Under the pieces are notes generated by a model, which was given only the letters and a program-made list of their open reading frames with translations, did not search any database and was not told the DNA's origin. Of a stretch of 64,000 nucleotides of DNA, positions 45,177 to 55,909 are shown one piece after another (position 1 is the stretch's first letter; the number at the start of each line of letters is the position of its first letter). The stretch covers positions 1,031,501-1,095,500 of the forward strand of contig NZ_AP025696.1 of the NCBI RefSeq assembly GCF_027943725.1, read 5' to 3'. The position numbers and the translations under genes are program-made. The DNA comes from Nitrosophilus kaiyonis. GTDB taxonomy: Bacteria; Campylobacterota; Campylobacteria; Campylobacterales; Nitratiruptoraceae.

Positions 45177-47372
45177 ATGCATTGTACATTTGAATTTGAT
45201 ATGAATAACAATAAAGAGATATATGAATTTGGAAAGGTAGCAAAACAAGCTAATGGAGCAGTTTTATTAAAAAGTGGTAAAACTGTAATGCTTGCTACTG
45301 TAGTAATGGATAAAAATCCTGTTGAAGAGGATTTTTTACCATTAACCGTTCAATATATAGAAAAATCTTATGCGGCTGGTAAGATTCCAGGAGGATTTGT
45401 TAAAAGAGAACAAAAACCAGGAGATTTTGAGACATTAACTGCAAGGATTGTTGATAGGGCAATTAGACCACTTTTTCCAAAAGGCTTTTTATATCCAGTA
45501 GTAATTACAGTAATGGTTTTAAGTGCTGATGAAGAGGCTGATTTACAAGTTTTAGCTTTAAATGCAGCAAGTGCAGCTTTATATGTAAGTGATATTCCAA
45601 TCAGGACAGCTGTTTGTGGGATAAGAGTGGCAAAAATTGATGGAGAAATAGTAATAAATCCAAAGCTTTCACAACTTGAAAATAGTACTTTAGATCTATA
45701 TTTAGCAGGTACAAAAGATGATCTTTTAATGATTGAAATGAGATCTATTGGAACATATGAACCTGAAATTTTACCACCTTCAATGGTTGACCCAATGCTA
45801 GATCCTACTTTGGCTGAAGAGGTGGTAATGATAAAAAATCCAAATGCATTTGATGAAGAAGAGCTTTCAAATATCATTTTACAAGGCAAAGAAGCAATAA
45901 ATAGTGCATGTAGTGAATATGAAAAATATTTTATTGAAGTTGCTAAAGAAGAGTTAGAAGTAGAGATCAAACCAGAAAAGATTGATGAAAATATCTGGAC
46001 ATATGTTGATGAGATTTATAAAGATGATATTTATAAAGCTATAAATGCAATGGCTAAAAGCGAAAGAGCTCAACATCTTGAAGAGATAGTAAAAAAGATT
46101 GCTGAAGATGAAATTGCAAAAGAGCAAGGTTGGGAAGAAGATACAATTTTTAAAGTGGTAGATAAATATAAAAGAAAAATTGTTAGAGATATGATTTTAA
46201 ATGAGAGAAAAAGAGCAGATGGAAGGGGATTAAAAGATGTTAGGAAAATAGATATTGAAACAAATATTTTACCTTCTGCACATGGATCATGCCTTTTTAC
46301 AAGGGGACAAACTCAAGCACTTGTAGTTTGTACAATTGGAGAAAAAAGTGCTGCTCAAATGTATGAACTTTTAACAAGTAAAGGACCAGAATATGAGCAT
46401 TTTATGGTTCATTACAATTTTCCACCTTTTAGTGTTGGAGAAGCTAGGCCTATTGGGGCTCCTGGAAGAAGAGAACTTGGACATGGAAATCTTGCAAAAA
46501 GAGCTTTAGAACCAGTTGTAGATGTTCCTGAAGATAAAACAATAAGACTTGTATCAGAAATTTTAGAATCAAATGGTTCATCATCAATGGCTACTGTATG
46601 TGGGGGAGCTTTAGCTTTAAAAGCAGCAAATATAGAGATAAAAGATCTTGTTGCTGGTGTTGCTATGGGGCTAGTTATAGAAAATGATAAATATGCAATT
46701 TTAACCGATATTATGGGACTCGAAGATCATGATGGAGATATGGATTTTAAAGTTGCAGGAACTAAAGATGGAATAACTGCATTACAAATGGATATTAAGC
46801 TTGGTGGAATTGAGGCAAATATATTAAAAGAAGCCCTTATTCAAGCTAAAGAAGCAAGAGAGCATATTTTAAATATTATGGAAGATGCTGCAAAAAAAAT
46901 TGAGATAAACGAAGAAAATCTTCCAACATCAAAAACCATAACAGTTCATCCAAGTAAAATTGCACAAATAATAGGTCAAGCTGGGAAAACAATAAAAGAG
47001 ATTATTGAAAAATTTGAAGTTAATATAGATATAGAAAGAGAAAAAGGAAAAGTAAAAGTTACTGGAAAAAACAAGCCAAAAGTTATAGCTGCATGTGAAC
47101 ATATTAAAACGATAGCGCAAAAAGAGGAAGAGAAAATTCCGCAGTTTAAAGAGGGCGAAATTTTAAAAGGAAAAGTAAAAAGAATAGCAAATTTTGGTGC
47201 CTTTGTTGAGCTTCCTGGTGGCATTGATGGACTTCTTCATATATCAAAACTTTCATCTGGTAGAGTTGAAAAAGTTGAAGATGTGGTAAATATTGGTGAT
47301 GAAGTAGAAGTTGAAGTTTTAAATCAAAAAGGACATAAAATAGAGCTTGCTTTGAGGCAAGTTTTTAAATAA
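45177..47372 (+). CDS. pnp: Polyribonucleotide nucleotidyltransferase (PNPase)
   Basis: Phosphorolytic 3'-5' exoribonuclease. The 731 residues comprise two RNase PH domains ([10 protein letters not shown] and [15 protein letters not shown] ... [13 protein letters not shown] ... [16 protein letters not shown]) separated by an alpha domain. A KH domain ([20 protein letters not shown]) and an S1 domain ([20 protein letters not shown]) end the protein. The ATG is preceded by AAGGAAGG. It is last in the purD-to-pnp run. Confidence 0.97.
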
Positions 47373-47384
47373 TAATTTAGGTTA

Positions 47385-47497
47385 GATAAATAAGTATAGT
47401 GAGTTAAAAAATAGTAATTGGTATATTGGTTATTAGTTATTGGTAAAAAAATCAAATATCTAATATACCAATTACCAATATACTAATAACCAAAATA
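47385..47497. repeat. Type A palindromic array between pnp and atpE
   Basis: attggtatattggttattag words on the left and tataccaattaccaatatac, ctaataaccaaaatag on the right form an imperfect hairpin about 100 bp long. Confidence 0.75.
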
Positions 47498-47619: not shown

Positions 47620-47925
47620 ATGAAAAAGCTTTTTTTACTTATGATTGCATTTGTTGGTTTTGCTTTTGCTGGCGAAGGTGAAAGCATGATTCAAGCATAC
47701 AGTGTTATAGCTGCTGGTGTTGGTCTTGGTATTGCTGCTGCTGGTGGTGGTCTTGGTATGGGACATACTGCAGCTGCAACTATTGCAGGAACTGCAAGAA
47801 ACCCGGGTCTTGGTGGTAAACTAATGACTACAATGTTCATTGCTCTTGCAATGATCGAAGCACAAGTTATCTATACACTTGTTATTGCTCTAATAGCTCT
47901 TTATGCTAACCCATTCTTAGGATAA
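47620..47925 (+). CDS. atpE: F-type ATP synthase subunit c
   Basis: Forms the rotary c-ring in the inner membrane. The 101 residues have an N-terminal signal-like helix (MKKLFLLMIAFVGFAFA), then helix 1 with a Gly-rich face, the polar loop Arg60-Asn61-Pro62, and helix 2 with the ion-binding Glu80 in AMIEAQVIYTL. Ser/Thr after Glu80 and the Gln of Na+-type rings are absent, so proton specificity is expected. It stands alone, away from other atp genes, as in other Campylobacterota. AGGAGG gives strong translation. Confidence 0.96.
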   Translation: MKKLFLLMIAFVGFAFAGEGESMIQAYSVIAAGVGLGIAAAGGGLGMGHTAAATIAGTARNPGLGGKLMTTMFIALAMIEAQVIYTLVIALIALYANPFLG

Positions 47926-47993: not shown

Positions 47994-48080
<87 letters not shown>

Positions 48081-49028
48081 CTATTTTAGATTTTGAATTG
48101 TTTTAAAGCTTTTTTTGGGATTTCCATACTTATCAATAACTCCAAAGAATTTTTCAGCTTTTTTAAAGTATCCTTTTTGTGATGGTTGATCTATCAAATG
48201 AAAATAGTTTATTCCTATTAAGTTTGCCTCTTTTTTTATACATGGAAGAAGTTCGTTGAAAGTTTCTAATACTTTGTTTTGTAAATTATTATCTTTATAT
48301 GAAGATATTGCTAAATATGCTAAAAAAGTTGGCTTTTTATATCTTTTATAAAGAAATTTAGCAAATGCGAAAGCTCGATATGGAGTATTTAAAATTTGAT
48401 ATTTTTTATTTCTTGTTAATGCTCTCATTTCTTGAAAAGCGATAAAATCAATATATTTTATAGCTTTTATATATGATTTTTCATACATTTTCCAATTTAG
48501 TTCATCTTCTATTAAATCATAATCTCCAAAATCTCCCAAGCAAAATCCAATAAGAGTATTTTTATTATCTTCTTTTAAAATTTTTATACTTTTTATTAAA
48601 ATAGTATTAAATTTTTTACTTTTATAGATATCATTTTGATTAAATTCTGGGTTTAATATAACAATTTTTTTCCCTTTTATTTTTTTTAAAAAATTTGAAA
48701 ATTTTTTAAGATGTAAAAAATATTTTTTTCTATTTTTTTTAACAAAATCATTACATATTTCATCTTCAAACCAATAAAATATAAAGATCGGTGTTAATCC
48801 TTGTTTTATTGAACTATTAATTTTTTCAATCGAATACCAATTTTCATTCCAATCTTTTGTAATCCATAAAGAATATGAATTAAAATTTGATAGATTTTTA
48901 TTTAAAAAATTAGATATTAAAAATTTTTTGTTTTTAAATATGATATTTTCATATCCTCCAATACTAAGATAAAAATCTTGGGCAAAAATAGATGATATAA
49001 AAAAGAGAATCAATACTATTTTTTTCAT
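48081..49028 (-). CDS. Exported TIM-barrel-like glycoside hydrolase candidate
   Basis: A 315-residue protein with signal peptide MKKIVLILFFISSIFAQ. Features fit a hydrolase barrel: strands ending in acidic residues (IFIFYWFEDE, KIVILNPEFN, TLIGFCLGDFGDYD, YIDFIAFQEMRAL, and LIGINYFHLIDQ near the end). No family can be named with certainty. By context it would cut the polysaccharide made by this operon, as the C-terminal hydrolase domain of PgaB or the N-terminal one of PelA does, but here as a separate protein. The start overlaps the deacetylase stop (ATGA), and its stop lies directly next to the tRNA 3' end. Confidence 0.6.
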   Translation of the reverse strand: MKKIVLILFFISSIFAQDFYLSIGGYENIIFKNKKFLISNFLNKNLSNFNSYSLWITKDWNENWYSIEKINSSIKQGLTPIFIFYWFEDEICNDFVKKNRKKYFLHLKKFSNFLKKIKGKKIVILNPEFNQNDIYKSKKFNTILIKSIKILKEDNKNTLIGFCLGDFGDYDLIEDELNWKMYEKSYIKAIKYIDFIAFQEMRALTRNKKYQILNTPYRAFAFAKFLYKRYKKPTFLAYLAISSYKDNNLQNKVLETFNELLPCIKKEANLIGINYFHLIDQPSQKGYFKKAEKFFGVIDKYGNPKKSFKTIQNLK

Positions 49029-50875
49029 GATTCAAAAGGTATAGTTATATTTATAGTCGTTTTTGGAGGTAGTTTTTTAATTGTAATATCACTATATCTT
49101 TCTTTATTAAAGTTTTTTATGTAAATTTTAATACCTGAAAATTGAGAGTATGGTTTTTTAATTTTTGAAAATTTATTCCAATAGAGTCTGAATTTGAAAT
49201 TTTCAACATCTTTCGTATTTAAATTTGACACAGTTACAATAAAATTTTTTTCTGCCTTTTTAATATCTAAATTTATATTATAAAACTGTTTTATAATATT
49301 ATAAATCTGTTCTCCATTTGCTACATTTTTTTTATTTATTTTAAGATAATTAAAAAATTTAGCCAAAGTAATAATATTATCTTTATATGTAAAAAGATGT
49401 GTATGGACACTTAAAGTATATATTCCATTTAATGATGTTATGAATTTCATCTCTTCAATAATATTTTCAAAAATCTCTTTTTTTGTCATATCTGTTTCAG
49501 CCATATATGCATAATCATCTGTGCCGACACGAGGTATAGTCAGTAGTGTATCATTGTAAAAAAATGGAAATAGTTGGTCTTTGTTTTTTTCCAATACATA
49601 TCTATATCCACTATTTGTTAACCATTTTATAACATTTTTATCTACCTCTTCTCTTGGTGGTCTAAAACCTATTACTTTTCTTTTTGATAATTTTTCCAAT
49701 ATTTCTTTTGAATATTTTATCTCTTTTTCTAATTTTTTTTCACTTTCATTTAATAAATTTGTATGTGAATAGCTATGTGATGCAATCTCTAAATATATAT
49801 TTTTACTTGATTGAATAAAAATATCCCTATTCTTTTCTGCTAAATTTGCTACACAAAAAGCTGTAGTATAAAGTTTATATTTTTTTGATAAATTGGAAAA
49901 ATTTTTCAAATTTTCAAATTTATATTCTGTATCTTCAGAAATAAATACTAAATCTTTTTTATCAATGTAAGGGAATTTTGCAATGCTATATCCATTATAA
50001 GCAAAGTTTATAATATCTAATAATAAATTATCATAATAGTTGCTATTTTCTTTTGAAGAGAAAAATGAATAAAATGGAAAAGAGAAATATATCCACATAC
50101 CTTTTTTATAATTTCCATGCCATAATACACCAGATTCATTTATAGAAAGTCTTTTATTAAATTGATCAAGTGGTGGAGAAGTTAAAGACCAGTTGGTTAG
50201 TGTAATATCTGGAATAGAAGAAGATTTAAAATAGGGAATATTATCATAAAGTACTAAATCAGCTCTTTTACCATTTTTTGAACTATTGTGAAAAGGGGAT
50301 AATATTTTTGGTACTATAAATATATCACTGTTTTTTGTATTTAAATGAGAATATTTTTTGTTATTTTTAAAATTAGTTATTTTCTTTACAAAATTATCTC
50401 CTAAAAAATTGCCTTTTTCATCACTATAAGCACAATTAAAATTAAAAATTAAACTTCCTCCATTTTCTAAAAATTTCAATATATTTTTTTGTATTTTTTT
50501 AGGTAAGGATATTGCATCAATTAAAAGTAAGGTAGATTTTTCTGGCATTTTTTTTATCTCATTTTCTTTAATAACAACCGGTTTATATCCATTTTTATTA
50601 AGAACATTTTTTATTGTCTCAATATTCCATAAATAATTTTTTTCTCCAACTCCTATATCATTAAATCTTTTAATGGTTGAATTTGATTTTAAAATATAAA
50701 TCTTTTTCTCTTTTTTTGAAATAGGAGCAAATACATTTATATCAGTAAAATTTTGAAAAATTTTTATAGTTAAATATGAAGATAAAAAGAGTAAAAAAAT
50801 AGCAATTAAAAATATTTTCAATATATAAGGAAATAAAAAAATATTTTTTTGAGGCACATTATTTTTCAAAATCAT
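49025..50875 (-). CDS. Membrane-anchored polysaccharide deacetylase
   Basis: 616 residues. One TM helix lies near 15-40. A periplasmic glutamine-amidotransferase-like Rossmann region (about 60-295) follows, then a NodB-type deacetylase domain. The metal site is formed by Glu314-Asp315 (SEDTE) and HSYSH at 367-371, with the RPP motif in GFRPPREE at 405-411. A C-terminal beta-sandwich begins near 535. The layout recalls PelA/PgaB rather than simple chitin deacetylases. I start at ATG 50875, which has GAGG at proper spacing; an upstream in-frame TTG at 50887 is less likely. It overlaps the small membrane gene upstream. Confidence 0.82.
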   Translation of the reverse strand: MILKNNVPQKNIFLFPYILKIFLIAIFLLFLSSYLTIKIFQNFTDINVFAPISKKEKKIYILKSNSTIKRFNDIGVGEKNYLWNIETIKNVLNKNGYKPVVIKENEIKKMPEKSTLLLIDAISLPKKIQKNILKFLENGGSLIFNFNCAYSDEKGNFLGDNFVKKITNFKNNKKYSHLNTKNSDIFIVPKILSPFHNSSKNGKRADLVLYDNIPYFKSSSIPDITLTNWSLTSPPLDQFNKRLSINESGVLWHGNYKKGMWIYFSFPFYSFFSSKENSNYYDNLLLDIINFAYNGYSIAKFPYIDKKDLVFISEDTEYKFENLKNFSNLSKKYKLYTTAFCVANLAEKNRDIFIQSSKNIYLEIASHSYSHTNLLNESEKKLEKEIKYSKEILEKLSKRKVIGFRPPREEVDKNVIKWLTNSGYRYVLEKNKDQLFPFFYNDTLLTIPRVGTDDYAYMAETDMTKKEIFENIIEEMKFITSLNGIYTLSVHTHLFTYKDNIITLAKFFNYLKINKKNVANGEQIYNIIKQFYNINLDIKKAEKNFIVTVSNLNTKDVENFKFRLYWNKFSKIKKPYSQFSGIKIYIKNFNKERYSDITIKKLPPKTTINITIPFES

Positions 50876-51077
50876 TTTTTTCCTCAAATTCTATTTTCTT
50901 AAAGAAAAGATAATTGCTATTTTCTATTTTTAAAGCTTCTTCATAAGGAATGATTCTATTTTTTAATTTTGATTTTTTTTCTCTAGCTTTATAAAGGAAA
51001 TAGGCAATAATTCCAAAAATTAGAGTCAAAATAGTAATAATTAAAATTACAAAAGATAATAAAGCTATAAAATTCAT
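50859..51077 (-). CDS. Small single-helix membrane protein of the exopolysaccharide operon
   Basis: 72 residues with one strong membrane helix (about 5-30) and a charged cytosolic tail. No domain is recognised. Its position directly after the synthase gene (1-base overlap) and before the deacetylase suggests a PgaD-like accessory subunit of the synthase. PgaD, however, has two helices, so this is positional inference. Confidence 0.7.
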   Translation of the reverse strand: MNFIALLSFVILIITILTLIFGIIAYFLYKAREKKSKLKNRIIPYEEALKIENSNYLFFKKIEFEEKNDFEK

Positions 51078-52372
51078 TACAATTTTCCTTTTCTTTCAAG
51101 TTTTCCCCAATTCATTTCTATATTGAACCACTCTTCAAGAGTTGCAAAAACTTTTGAAATATTTATAATTGATATAAAATATAGTCTGTAAAATATAGCA
51201 TAAAGAGCTAATTTTAGATTGTCTTTTGTGACCATTATACAGTAAAAAGCACCTGCTACATCCAATATTGTAAAAAAAAGCCACCAATAAATCAATAAAA
51301 TATCTGCTCCATACTTTAATGAAATAAATATTAAAAACATATTTGCCCAGGTATCCATAAATGGCCAAAGTACAGCTTCAAATAGCATATACCACAAAAC
51401 AAAAAACATTGAAGGCTTTTTAAAGGAGAAAAGGCGTTTTTTATGTTTTTTGATAGATTGTAAAATACCTCTTGTCCATCTATATCTCTGTTTTAAAAGA
51501 TCTAAAAGATGTTCAGGGGCTTCTGTGTATGCAACAGCATCCGATTCAAACTCTATTTTATATCCATTATCTAAAAGTTTTAGAGTTAAATCACAATCTT
51601 CTGCAAATGTATCGCTATCATATCCTCCAACTTCTTTAACACTTTTTTTTCTAAACATTCCTATTGGGCCAGGTATGATATTTACCAACTTTAAAAAAGC
51701 TTGGCCATTTCTAGCCATATTTAAGCCTTCTACATATTCTAATGCTTGGAGTTTTGTTAATATATTATTTTGATTTGCAACAAAAACAGAACCGGCAACT
51801 GCAGATATTTCCTCATCATTAAAATATTCAACCATTTTTTCTACCGCATATTTATCAAGTCTGGAATCAGCATCTATACATAAAATTAACTCACCTGTTG
51901 ATCTTTCAATACCAAAATTTAATGCTTTTGCTTTACCTTCGTTTCTTTTTTTATAAACTTTTACATTATTAGATAAATTTTCAAAAAATTTTGCCTGTTT
52001 ATATGTGTCATCAGTTGAACCATCATCGACAACAATGATTTCTAAATTTTTATATGTTTGTTGTAATAAAGAGCGGATTGGTGCTTTTATAATAACTCCT
52101 TCATTGTATGCAGGAATAATTGCAGATACTTTAAAATTTTTATAACTGATTGGTTTTTCTTCTGCACTTTTAAAAACAGTTTTAAGAATAGAAAAAATTA
52201 TCAAAGATAGATATCTAAGAATAATAATGAAAGTAAAAGCAATGATTAAAATTACACCAAATCTAATAAAAGTTGATTCAAAATTAATATAGTAATCAAT
52301 AAGATTTGCCGAATGATATAAACTAAAAGTTATTAAAAATATTATAAAAAAAATAAATAAAATCTCTTTCAT
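51077..52372 (-). CDS. PgaC/IcaA-like family 2 glycosyltransferase (exopolysaccharide synthase)
   Basis: A processive inner-membrane synthase of 431 residues. Two N-terminal helices (to about 62) precede a GT2 domain with DDGST at 116-120, DAD at 167-169, the catalytic Asp in AED 257-259 and QRYRW at 295-299. Three or four C-terminal helices and the ending EEWFNIEMNWGKLERKGK follow. These are the motifs of beta-1,6-GlcNAc and related synthases. The sugar cannot be fixed from sequence, though the adjacent deacetylase argues for an N-acetylated one. ATG comes one base after the upstream TAA. Confidence 0.92.
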   Translation of the reverse strand: MKEILFIFFIIFLITFSLYHSANLIDYYINFESTFIRFGVILIIAFTFIIILRYLSLIIFSILKTVFKSAEEKPISYKNFKVSAIIPAYNEGVIIKAPIRSLLQQTYKNLEIIVVDDGSTDDTYKQAKFFENLSNNVKVYKKRNEGKAKALNFGIERSTGELILCIDADSRLDKYAVEKMVEYFNDEEISAVAGSVFVANQNNILTKLQALEYVEGLNMARNGQAFLKLVNIIPGPIGMFRKKSVKEVGGYDSDTFAEDCDLTLKLLDNGYKIEFESDAVAYTEAPEHLLDLLKQRYRWTRGILQSIKKHKKRLFSFKKPSMFFVLWYMLFEAVLWPFMDTWANMFLIFISLKYGADILLIYWWLFFTILDVAGAFYCIMVTKDNLKLALYAIFYRLYFISIINISKVFATLEEWFNIEMNWGKLERKGKL

Positions 52373-52373
52373 T

Positions 52374-54563
52374 TTACCATCTATATAATAGCTTGAAGTT
52401 TACTTCTCTATACCAGTAATTTTGATTATTAGAGCTTTTTGATAAAGAATTTCCTTGTATAAAAGATAATTTTATACTTGAATGTTGATCAAATCGATAC
52501 TCTAACCAAGATGAAATTTGATATAAAAAGCTACTTTCTTTAAAACTATATCCAATTTCAGGCTTAAATAAGAAAGAATAGTTGTTTTTTATTTTTTTTG
52601 TCTCTATACCTAAAAATGTACTATCATAAAATTTAGGAGAATAGTAATAATCACTTGTTTTTGAATTAAGATGATACCAGCCAGAAACAATAAAACCATT
52701 TTCAAAAGAGTAATATTTTTTAAATAGATATTGATAAACAAATTGAGCAGTCAAAGCTTTATTCCCATCATCAACTTTATCAAATTCAATAGATGCCCAT
52801 ATATATTTTTTCTTTTTTAGATCTATATCTTTATAAAAATCAAAATCTAAAGAGATTGCATCAATTCTTTCATCAAAAAGATATTTTCTATATTTTAAAA
52901 ATCCATAATTTCTTTTTTTGATAGTAGTTCTTATTGAGACTTTTTTATATGTAGTTTCATATTGAAAATATGGGCTAAAATCAGTTTTTGAATTAAATTT
53001 GTCAAAATTAATTCCAAAATTATAGTTTGAATATTTTAAAGATGTCTGTAAAGTTTTTCCCTTTAGACTTTCATCATCAATAAGTTTCCAAATTTGTGGT
53101 GATATATGTAGATTAACTTTGTCGTTAAATATCTTAGAAAAAACTATTTTTTTATTATAAAAGTTAATATGATCTTTATCACTATAATGATAAAAATCAA
53201 ACTCTAAAGTTTTATCGTTTTTTAGTATATTTTCTTCTATATCAATTTTATCTTCTATATTATCTTTTGAAAGCAATTGAGATGTATTTTTTATTTTAAT
53301 TTTTTTTAATTTATAAAGATCCAATACACTATATTTTGGTTTGATATCTTTTTTGATTCCTTCAGCTACTTTTACTTTTGTTAGATTCTCTTCTAAAGAT
53401 TTTATCTTTTGTATTAATTTTTTTTCATTTTTACATTGGATTTTAAACTCTTTAATATTTTTTTCAAGTGATTCGTATATATTTAATATTTGAAGTAAAT
53501 TAATATATTCATAAAAATATTGGCAATTAACAAATTTTATTTTTTCTAAATATTTAATAGCTTTTTTATACTCTTTTCTTTCATTAAAAATTTTGTACAT
53601 TTTATAATAATGTTTTTCTCTAAAAATAATAAATTCTTTATTATTTTTAAATTTTTGTGACATATATAAAAAAAGATTTTGAGCTTCATGAATTTTATTA
53701 AACCATATATAATGATTATATAGCTCCTTATATGCCAAAAAAGTTTGTGTTATTTGTGCATATTTTTTTAAATAATTAAATCCAACATCTTCATTTTTCA
53801 ATCTTAAATATAAAATTCCTAACTCTCTTAAAACAGATATATCTAAAGGATTTTTCCCATAATAAACTTCATAAAATTTAATTGCTTTTTTTATATTTCC
53901 TGCTTTTTGATTATAAAGTGCGAGTTTATAAATGTATTGAATATTATCTGGATTTGATTTATATAATTTTTCATATTTTTTAATTAAATATTGATATTTT
54001 TTTTCGATTACCATTAAAGCTTCATTTACTTCATCACTTTTGTAAAATTTCAGATATTCATTGAAATATTTTTTTGCTTTTTTATAATCTCCATTCCAAT
54101 AATATATAAATCCCATATATTTAAAAGATTTTATTTTAAGTTTTTTATTTTTACTATTTTTGATTATTTTTAAAAATATTTTTTTGCTTAATTCAAAGTC
54201 ACCATTCCATGCAAGATATTTAGCAATTTCAAAATCTATCTCTTCATCTTTTAAACCAATTTTTTTTAAAGATTTTCTAGCATCTTTTATATTATGAATG
54301 TAGACTTGATACATTGCAAGTACTTTATATGCATATTTATAGAAAGGATATTTTGAAATAAATTTTTTTAAAAAATTAATTGTTTTCTTTTTTGATTTAA
54401 ATATATATAGGTATTGTGCATATTTTTCTATAGGAGAGAAATCATAATCTTTCTTAAAATTTATAATAATCTCTTTCTCAGATTTATTAAATAGATTTTG
54501 TTTTAAATTTTCATTTGCAAAGAGAGATAAAAGAAGCAAAATTAAAATGAAAATCATTTTCAT
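52374..54563 (-). CDS. TPR and beta-barrel outer-membrane exporter (PgaA-like)
   Basis: 729 residues. The signal peptide is MKMIFILILLLLSLFA. An alpha-helical TPR superhelix follows to about residue 400 (for example AGNIKKAIKFYEVYYGKNPL and KAKKYFNEYLKFYKSDE). The last 250 residues consist of alternating strands and end in an aromatic residue (EVNFKLLYRW), the outer-membrane barrel signature. This is the layout of PgaA and PelB, which carry and modify the polymer through the outer membrane. It overlaps the upstream gene by 4 bases (ATGA). Confidence 0.85.
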   Translation of the reverse strand: MKMIFILILLLLSLFANENLKQNLFNKSEKEIIINFKKDYDFSPIEKYAQYLYIFKSKKKTINFLKKFISKYPFYKYAYKVLAMYQVYIHNIKDARKSLKKIGLKDEEIDFEIAKYLAWNGDFELSKKIFLKIIKNSKNKKLKIKSFKYMGFIYYWNGDYKKAKKYFNEYLKFYKSDEVNEALMVIEKKYQYLIKKYEKLYKSNPDNIQYIYKLALYNQKAGNIKKAIKFYEVYYGKNPLDISVLRELGILYLRLKNEDVGFNYLKKYAQITQTFLAYKELYNHYIWFNKIHEAQNLFLYMSQKFKNNKEFIIFREKHYYKMYKIFNERKEYKKAIKYLEKIKFVNCQYFYEYINLLQILNIYESLEKNIKEFKIQCKNEKKLIQKIKSLEENLTKVKVAEGIKKDIKPKYSVLDLYKLKKIKIKNTSQLLSKDNIEDKIDIEENILKNDKTLEFDFYHYSDKDHINFYNKKIVFSKIFNDKVNLHISPQIWKLIDDESLKGKTLQTSLKYSNYNFGINFDKFNSKTDFSPYFQYETTYKKVSIRTTIKKRNYGFLKYRKYLFDERIDAISLDFDFYKDIDLKKKKYIWASIEFDKVDDGNKALTAQFVYQYLFKKYYSFENGFIVSGWYHLNSKTSDYYYSPKFYDSTFLGIETKKIKNNYSFLFKPEIGYSFKESSFLYQISSWLEYRFDQHSSIKLSFIQGNSLSKSSNNQNYWYREVNFKLLYRW

Positions 54564-55909
54564 GAGAAGATATATGCCTTTTGATAAAAGATATCAAGAG
54601 AATCAAAAGATTTTCCCAATAAAAGATAATCTTTAAAATCGCTAAATTTATTTTCTAAAATTTCATAATTATTTTTTTGAAAATTTAACATTAAAAGATA
54701 CAATTTTTTCTCTTTTTTATCAAAAAAGACTCTATCATACTTTCTTAGTCTATTTATTAAATCATCTATATGAAGATTTTGATTGTATTTAAATTGAAAT
54801 ATAGTAAAAAATAGCCTTTTTTTTATTAATAGGTTAATAACCTCTAAAAAATCCTTTTTTTCTTTAAAATAGTTCACATTTATTTCTATCTTTTTATTAC
54901 TGTAAAAACTATTTTCAAGACTTTTTTCTAATAAAAAGATATAATCACTTAGATTATAATAGGTTGTAATATCACTACATCCATTATTTATAGCATTTAT
55001 TTTATCTTCTGTTCTTATAAACTTTTTCTCTAAAAGTAATAAAATTTGAGTATTAAGAGGACTTTCCTTTAAAAATTTACATGATTGAACATCTATATCT
55101 TCACTATGATAAATTGTAATATCTGGATTTTTTAAAAATTCTTCTAAAATTTTTAAAGGATCATTTTCTATAGTAAGATTTATAAAATTATTATTATCAA
55201 ATATGTAACTATGAAGCTTTGAAAGATACTCATCTTTTGTAAAAACTAGTATATTTTTTTTGGTAACTATTTTTTCATTCTTTTTTGTAATTAACTTAAA
55301 TCTATTTTTATCTATTTTAAAATAAAACTCATTTTCTTTCAATGGAAATAGAGAGTATTTAATAGAAATATTTTTTGAAAAATTATCAAAATTTTTAACA
55401 TCAAAATTTATATCAATGAATTGGTATAAGTTTTCCTCAATCATTTCATATAGTGGATTTTCTTTATTTAATAAAACAAATACTCTTTTTTGATATTTTT
55501 GAATTATATCTGTTAGATTTTTTATAAAAAATTCAATATCATTAAGATCCATATTCTCAAAAAATTGTGAAAATCTATGAAAAATAATATTTTTTGCACT
55601 ACTTTCTTTTATTATTTTTTCAATCTCTTCTATAAATAGCAAAAAAGAGTATTTTTCTTTTATATCTTTCCAATCTGGCTTAATTGTGAAAATATCAAGA
55701 TGATTATATAAATCTTTAAAATTATCAAAATTTTTATGTAAAATATTTATCTTCTTTATTAAAATATTTTCATATTGAGATGAAAAAATAATAGCTTTTT
55801 CATCAAAAGCATTTTTAATTAACCAGGAAGCAAAAGTGAGTTTGCCTGTACCAGAATTTCCAGATATAGCTATATATGAAGAATCATTCAATATTTTATA
55901 AAGTTCCAT
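54560..55909 (-). CDS. RecA-like ATPase / REC-like / degenerate GGDEF protein (BcsE/PelD-like c-di-GMP receptor candidate)
   Basis: 449 residues, cytosolic, first gene of the exopolysaccharide operon. Residues 1-205 look like a KaiC/RecA-type ATPase with P-loop GNSGTGK at 17-23. Residues 217-333 follow a receiver fold (ILVFTKDEYL, TQILLLLEKKF, INNGCSDI) but lack the phosphorylation Asp. Residues 350-449 resemble a GGDEF domain: Arg389-Lys-Tyr-Asp392, then five residues, then KKEKK where GGDEF would stand. So the active site is lost, but an RxxD with I-site spacing remains. BcsE has a similar domain series. The role as c-di-GMP sensor is inferred. Confidence 0.65.
   Translation of the reverse strand: MELYKILNDSSYIAISGNSGTGKLTFASWLIKNAFDEKAIIFSSQYENILIKKINILHKNFDNFKDLYNHLDIFTIKPDWKDIKEKYSFLLFIEEIEKIIKESSAKNIIFHRFSQFFENMDLNDIEFFIKNLTDIIQKYQKRVFVLLNKENPLYEMIEENLYQFIDINFDVKNFDNFSKNISIKYSLFPLKENEFYFKIDKNRFKLITKKNEKIVTKKNILVFTKDEYLSKLHSYIFDNNNFINLTIENDPLKILEEFLKNPDITIYHSEDIDVQSCKFLKESPLNTQILLLLEKKFIRTEDKINAINNGCSDITTYYNLSDYIFLLEKSLENSFYSNKKIEINVNYFKEKKDFLEVINLLIKKRLFFTIFQFKYNQNLHIDDLINRLRKYDRVFFDKKEKKLYLLMLNFQKNNYEILENKFSDFKDYLLLGKSFDSLDIFYQKAYIFS

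Follow-up and report, generated by a model that had tools for sequence, protein, structure and literature searches.

A putative clan-GH-A-like glycoside hydrolase encoded beside a polysaccharide deacetylase in Nitrosophilus kaiyonis, and the exchange of its gene for GH8 in related genomes

The DNA considered here, a stretch of 64,000 nucleotides of Nitrosophilus kaiyonis that will be called the window, carries the operon listed in Table 1. In the window and in most relatives, the order of the genes is regulator, TPR protein, GT2 synthase, small membrane protein, deacetylase, and a gene for a 315-aa protein that is labelled GHX here; at two loci (L131 and L133), the regulator and the TPR protein are swapped. 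The start codon of GHX (ATG) and the stop codon of the deacetylase ORF (TGA) lie in a four-base overlap (ATGA), and the coordinates and this overlap bear out an earlier note on this DNA, in which a separate 315-residue ORF coupled to the deacetylase had been described. On its other side, the GHX stop is directly adjoined by a tRNA-Leu gene (47994-48080, plus strand). Nested imperfect inverted repeats, with arms of 24-28 nt that are 82-83% complementary, are found at 47414-47490; the ORFs on either side of this gap are those at 45177-47372 and 47620-47925.

Table 1. Genes of the operon in the window, and HupE/UreJ-type genes at related loci (positions with an L prefix are those of the related locus)
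Feature	Position	Strand	Remarks
GHX, predicted periplasmic (beta/alpha)8 glycoside hydrolase	48081..49028	-	315 aa, ATG start
Membrane-anchored CE4 deacetylase	49025..50887	-	PF01522; model corresponds to PelA domains 2-4
Small membrane protein	50859..51077	-	72 aa, against about 60 aa in most relatives; a single hydrophobic segment
GT2 processive synthase	51077..52372	-	nearest named model PgaC/IcaA
TPR protein	52374..54563	-	729 aa; signal-like start; TPR matches and place in operon
Putative BcsE-like regulator	54560..55909	-	KaiC-like, receiver-like and degenerate C-terminal domains
HupE/UreJ-type protein (PF13795)	L033:10333-11298		inside operon, between deacetylase and hydrolase
HupE/UreJ-type protein (PF13795)	L049:8985-10112
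HupE/UreJ-type protein (PF13795)	L053:8835-10154
HupE/UreJ-type protein (PF13795)	L131:5054-6178
HupE/UreJ-type protein (PF13795)	L133:4335-5450
HupE/UreJ-type protein (PF13795)	L139:9341-10501

A protein search found GHX homologues in 14 of 100 genomes, its own genome counted, and a sample of the phylum gave them in 15 of 298. Since homologues are present in 13 other genomes, in seven of which they cover at least 286 residues at 48-55% identity, the ORF does not arise by chance; it is a real gene, conserved at about 50% identity. The N-terminus (MKKIVLILFFISSIFAQ) consists of a hydrophobic stretch followed by A-Q, which by eye reads as a signal peptide and agrees with the earlier proposal that the protein is exported.

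The deacetylase scores 60.6 bits against PF01522 (cut-off, 23.1), and its CE4 residues H371, H375, R409, H495, and H497 are invariant in 13 of 13 deacetylases. Its ORF is listed from a TTG, and an in-frame ATG four codons inward is, by eye, the likelier start. In the predicted structure (pLDDT 79.8), which has a helix at 19-47, the best fold matches are single-domain CE4 enzymes (Z up to 26.8, at most 242 residues); in addition, residues 62-618 align with residues 284-847 of a PelA chain (9cgy) at Z 20.6 and an rmsd of 11.6 over 410 residues, a high rmsd that probably reflects differing domain orientations. The hydrolase of PelA is placed before residue 293 in the excerpt of PMC12022489. Thus the match spans the three non-hydrolase domains only, and the deacetylase is like PelA minus its hydrolase, so that the comparison with PelA in the earlier note holds; the operon set resembles a PelA whose hydrolase is supplied as a separate and apparently unrelated protein. 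The deacetylase is no proof of an amino sugar, because CE4 enzymes also take O-acetyl groups; acetylxylan esterases are among the members of the family named in PMC5855634. At six loci, a HupE/UreJ-type membrane protein is encoded in, beside, or near the operon. Proteins of this type are linked to nickel/cobalt uptake, and their proximity might be relevant to a metal-dependent deacetylase.

The GT2 synthase is nearest to the PgaC/IcaA model TIGR03937 (195.4 bits), below its cut-off of 422.3. The small membrane protein, overlooked by the first gene list at many loci, has a profile match in all 24 operon loci searched; the one at L052 has no PgaD match. The TPR protein, by its matches and its place, is likely to be the outer-membrane exporter. 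The barrel of PgaA (PF21197) is absent from it at E 1, versus an E of 4.7e-60 for the PgaA of the same genome. Its length here compares with about 1,120-1,150 aa in several relatives, and at four loci (L033, L053, L132, and L139) the TPR region forms two ORFs.

With regard to the regulator, a PDB search with its profile gave KaiC at E 3.8e-4 and receiver domains at E 4e-6, and two RxxD motifs are kept in 13 of 13 sequences. BcsE combines RecA/KaiC-like, REC-like, and degenerate GGDEF parts. In PMC7439463, it is described as KaiC-like in its N-terminal part and as carrying an RXXD that binds c-di-GMP. Both motifs of the regulator fall on R..D sites of BcsE in a profile comparison that reaches only E 0.098 and is thin because BcsE was recovered from just 2 of the 185 gammaproteobacterial genomes searched, giving two BcsE sequences; the BcsE model PF10995 itself stays below its cut-off (best E 0.131, for the regulator of L049). 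These features suggest that the regulator is BcsE-like.

Structure prediction, the check proposed in the earlier note, gave GHX a (beta/alpha)8 fold of eight alternating strands and helices (AlphaFold2 from an 18-row alignment; mean pLDDT 88, pTM 0.87), in agreement with the TIM-barrel-like protein claimed there. Among the best 50 PDB matches each by Foldseek (E down to 1.3e-9) and VIA-align (Z 21.4-22.2, rmsd 3.2-4.1, 270-285 residues aligned), nearly all are glycosidases, mainly of clan GH-A types, with GH53, GH10, GH2, GH5, and GH1 as neighbours at 10-16% identity. TIM barrels with unrelated functions also match each other. The matches in BFVD are generic phage GH5-type barrels, and the PelA hydrolase is not among the fold matches listed, a result that excludes nothing.

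No glycosidase model of Pfam or NCBIfam matched GHX. When 62 members of the family were scanned singly with Pfam at E up to 1, there was no credible glycosidase among 25 of the 26 matches; NCBIfam likewise gave none for the 62, with one chance-level row for a 6-phospho-beta-glucosidase (E 0.084), and sequence searches of the PDB, for which a single sequence and then three alignments served as queries, returned nothing credible (best E 0.22). Thus, measured against Pfam and NCBIfam, the two libraries by which its family status is set here, the GHX family is absent from both, and the statement in the earlier note that no glycoside hydrolase family could be assigned holds for GHX and for 61 relatives. 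GH153 (PF14883, GHL13), whose check had been suggested, is unmatched among those 25 of 26 Pfam rows, and a profile comparison with the PgaB domain of the same genome reached only E 0.099 over 32 columns. GH114 (PF03537) is unmatched in the same rows, with an E of 0.44 by profile comparison, although PF03537 does match other domains of fused relatives. GH135 (PF12138) also has no Pfam match in the 25 of 26 rows; a single-sequence profile comparison linked it to GHX at E 2.6e-4, and this was set aside as unreliable because the alignment crosses K/N-rich helices and gaps out the region of the E128 motif. In these comparisons with GHL13/GH153 and GH114, GHX thus shows no relation by sequence, and they give no support to its description as "split from" the deacetylase in the sense of a displaced PgaB or PelA hydrolase domain.

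An alignment of the 62 members, which leaves out identical copies and fragments shorter than about 250 residues and from which L045 and L106 were removed by hand, shows W55, D89, P127, E128, N130, D166, R218, P233, E292, and G296 to be invariant. Three stretches had been put forward as holding candidate acidic residues. D89 (in IFIFYWFEDE) and E128 (in KIVILNPEFN) stand in 62 of 62 and D194 (in YIDFIAFQEM) in 60, but E200, in the FQEM of that last stretch, is found in only 38 and is not supported as a general catalytic candidate; D166 and E292 (both 62/62) and D280 (61/62) are conserved acids that had not been named. In the model, D89 follows strand 3, E128 comes three residues beyond strand 4, D166 follows strand 5, and D280 follows strand 8, with E292 in the next loop. 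In clan GH-A, the catalytic glutamate sits at the end of strand 4 and the nucleophile glutamate on strand 7. In the 62-member alignment, however, strand 7 of GHX has no conserved acid at positions 234-244, so the clan's catalytic plan is not reproduced even though the fold is GH-A-like.

To avoid the use of GHX itself as the query, loci were collected with an alignment of the deacetylase. This recovered 15 of 100 related genomes (E 1e-30), 10 of 397 genomes of the phylum (E 1e-50), eight of them shared, and 2 of 369 genomes of the class of Pontibacterium, for 19 distinct loci, of which 17 could be scored (G032 is a lone divergent deacetylase, and G063 is cut by a contig end). The slot behind the deacetylase is occupied by GHX in 11 of the 17 and by GH8 in two (G061 and G086, in each directly behind the deacetylase), and it holds no same-strand gene in four (G042, G057, G073, and G615). 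The two GH8 proteins (L131 and L133), which are 58% identical to each other, score 94.4 and 92.3 bits against PF01270 (cut-off, 24; E 9e-27 and 4e-26). The one from G086/L131, the single one compared with the PDB, is nearest to 5xd0, a "Glucanase" (3.6e-72), followed by the chitosanases 7cju (4.3e-67) and 1v5c (6.6e-67), and is far weaker against the CelA cellulase (9.9e-26) and 5czl (0.009), which we take to be a BcsZ-type entry. In a search of 23 genomes, GHX was found in neither GH8-slot genome, and the two other GH8 matches, in G591 and G349, lie on contigs apart from the operon.

When the labels are mapped onto the trees for the deacetylase (25 rows) and the GT2 (24 rows), taken as unrooted, GHX changes four times and GH8 once. 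The four changes suggest that GHX has probably been lost or replaced more than once; the exchange with GH8 itself comes from two sister genomes and has one origin on the tree. Because 4 of the 17 scorable loci have no slot hydrolase, the protein would be either dispensable or supplied elsewhere. By either search, the operon with GHX is present at 18 loci, the 11 above and seven that came from a GHX query (L048-L051 and L053-L055, with L050 and L051 cut by contig ends). At all 18, which span Campylobacterota and Gammaproteobacteria, GHX is downstream of the deacetylase, directly in 17 and with one intervening gene in L033.

When a single genome was scanned for each species, 60 loci with GHX relatives were found, two of which (L056 and L103) have no ORF at the profile threshold used. 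They include Campylobacterota, Vibrio, Photobacterium, Marinobacterium, Pontibacterium, Methylococcales, Thiotrichaceae, and Aquificota. Among the 47 relatives outside the operon, accompanying domains are CBM2 (10), GH114 (6), GH9 (2), and Spherulin4/GH135 (2). At L076, L079, and L083-L085, a relative lies a few genes ahead of a second GT2-type synthase; L084 (6818-16083) comprises the relative, a STAS-like protein (by eye), a nucleotidyl transferase, a GT2, and two DUF3131 proteins. Given the fusions with CBM2 and glycosidases and this second GT2-type operon, the family keeps company with glycan-active modules. These are mostly of beta-glucan or amino-sugar type; for some distant relatives, the fusions with GH114 and GH135 indicate polymers of alpha-linked galactosamine. 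Distant relatives such as L034:8311-10461 also carry, ahead of the last strand, an insertion (W.D.N.....D..E) that looks like a calcium-binding loop and is absent from the operon form. In Vibrio and Photobacterium, the barrel lies in the middle of proteins of 777-828 aa (L057:7122-9530, L060, L061, L063, L067, and L068), and in most cases a protein of about 201-230 aa is encoded ahead of them; the one at L057 is HAMP-like. Pfam gave no domain for the barrel protein of L057, and the Vibrio relative had no match in the plasmid collection.

These findings suggest that GHX is a periplasmic endo-hydrolase with a clan-GH-A-like barrel, acting on the polymer of its own operon within a presumed c-di-GMP-controlled, synthase-dependent exopolysaccharide system, a reading that we hold with good though not full confidence. 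The earlier prediction of a hydrolase is thus upheld by the fold, by the GH8 found in the same slot, and by the fusions with glycosidases and CBM2. In this mechanism, the GT2 and the small membrane protein would polymerise the chain and pass it across the inner membrane, the deacetylase, anchored in that membrane, would take off acetyl groups, GHX would cut periplasmic chains and so clear stalled polymer or set its length, as BcsZ and the PelA hydrolase are supposed to do, and the TPR protein would export what remains. E128 is the candidate general acid, and its partner may be D166, D89, or E292. GT2 synthases normally make beta linkages, and the fold neighbours of GHX act mostly on such linkages. 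The likeliest polymer is a beta-linked one based on amino sugars, possibly chitosan-like and beta-1,4; given the GT2, the fold neighbours, and the GH8 substitute, a partly deacetylated beta-1,4 polymer is a fair guess. It is no more than a guess, since CE4 enzymes act on O-acetyl groups as well and the top PDB match of the GH8 is a "Glucanase" rather than a chitosanase. A bolder proposal, which we offer tentatively and rate as somewhat improbable as a whole, is that the operon is an undescribed c-di-GMP-gated machine for the secretion of a chitosan-like polymer, made up of a BcsE-like sensor, a PgaC-like synthase and its 60-aa partner, and a PelA-like deacetylase, and that GHX founds a new endo-chitosanase-type family that is interchangeable with GH8, with its wider relatives cutting other amino- or glucan polymers.

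It could be postulated instead that GHX is a diverged GH153 or GH166 that hydrolyses PNAG or Pel and that the operon represents a pga or pel system that has diverged. The best score of the GT2 against PgaC/IcaA and the PelA-like architecture of the deacetylase are compatible with this idea, as is the weak profile match to one GH135 domain that was judged unreliable with E128 gapped out. Yet PF14883, PF03537, and PF12138 are unmatched by the 62 members among 25 of the 26 rows, the genome already has a full pgaABCD with its own GHL13, the polymerase here is a GT2 where PelF is described as a GT4, and the GH8 substitute lies outside the alpha-galactosaminidase families. This explanation is consequently thought unlikely.

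The absence of an acid on strand 7, where the GH-A nucleophile sits, together with the four of 17 scorable loci that manage without GHX, would also suit a barrel with no catalytic activity, which would bind the polymer as a chaperone and lead the deacetylated chain towards the exporter. Such a role is distinctly unlikely, as D89, E128, D166, and E292 are invariant in all 62 members, the slot can be taken by a member of a hydrolase family, and relatives are fused with other glycosidase domains. It is very unlikely that GHX, though a hydrolase, merely resides in the operon and has another target, such as peptidoglycan or other bacterial or environmental polymers. Many distant relatives (47) do lie outside the operon, with cellulose-binding or other glycosidase domains, but the position downstream of the deacetylase in 18 of 18 operon loci, across Campylobacterota and Gammaproteobacteria, and the occupation of the same slot by GH8 tie the protein to the operon.

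An endo-hydrolase of the operon's own polymer touches the question of why systems that export deacetylated polysaccharides should include a hydrolase for the very polymer that they make; the role of the hydrolase in pga is called unknown in PMC7112194. Because the hydrolase is here a separate gene, lost or exchanged for GH8 according to lineage, a single system can be compared in nature "with," "without," and "swapped." If GHX is indeed a hydrolase, it adds a family of glycosidases that is missing from current profile libraries and is seen in Campylobacterota, Vibrio, Photobacterium, other Gammaproteobacteria, and Aquificota, and the operon would give a genome already equipped with pgaABCD a further polymer system next to PNAG.

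In comparison with known systems, GHX shares with clan GH-A (GH53, GH10, GH2, GH5, and GH1) the predicted fold, and its invariant E128, just after strand 4, may correspond to the catalytic glutamate of the clan; it differs in its 10-16% identity and in the lack of a conserved acid on strand 7. Among the openly licensed PMC papers listed for the operon, for its deacetylase/hydrolase pair, for a bacterial chitosan system, and for GH114/GH135/GH166-type families, none describes the operon in its title or the beginning of its abstract, a result that leaves room for a description elsewhere; a soluble chitin/chitosan-like exopolymer of Citrobacter provides a precedent (PMC6414854). As in pgaABCD, there is a GT2 nearest PgaC, a TPR exporter, and a CE4 deacetylase with a hydrolase. 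Unlike in the PNAG system, the hydrolase is not GHL13/GH153 as in PgaB, the GT2 falls below the PgaC equivalog cut-off, and the TPR protein has no PgaA barrel. Furthermore, a canonical pgaABCD (L046:9821-15852), in which the models for the PgaA barrel, GHL13, and PgaD are all matched, lies in the same genome about 14 kb past the window end; since it is separate and complete, the window operon is not the genome's canonical PNAG system. In PelA of Pseudomonas, four domains (hydrolase, reductase-like, deacetylase, and beta-rich) form one protein, and, as there, hydrolase and deacetylase would serve one polymer. In contrast to PelA, however, the hydrolase here has a gene of its own and shows no relation by sequence to GH114-type domains, the sole glycosyltransferase of the operon is a GT2 and not a GT4 PelF, and the deacetylase keeps an arginine motif (FRPPREE) that PelA is described as lacking in the excerpt of PMC12022489. 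Finally, the operon has in common with cellulose-type systems a putative periplasmic endo-hydrolase tied to a GT2 synthase, as with BcsZ (GH8), and a putatively BcsE-like regulator with RxxD motifs, and GH8 occupies the slot in two genomes. GHX differs from BcsZ in that it is predicted to fold as a (beta/alpha)8 barrel and does not match GH8 by sequence, and the GH8 substitute that was compared is nearer to glucanase and chitosanase entries than to 5czl.
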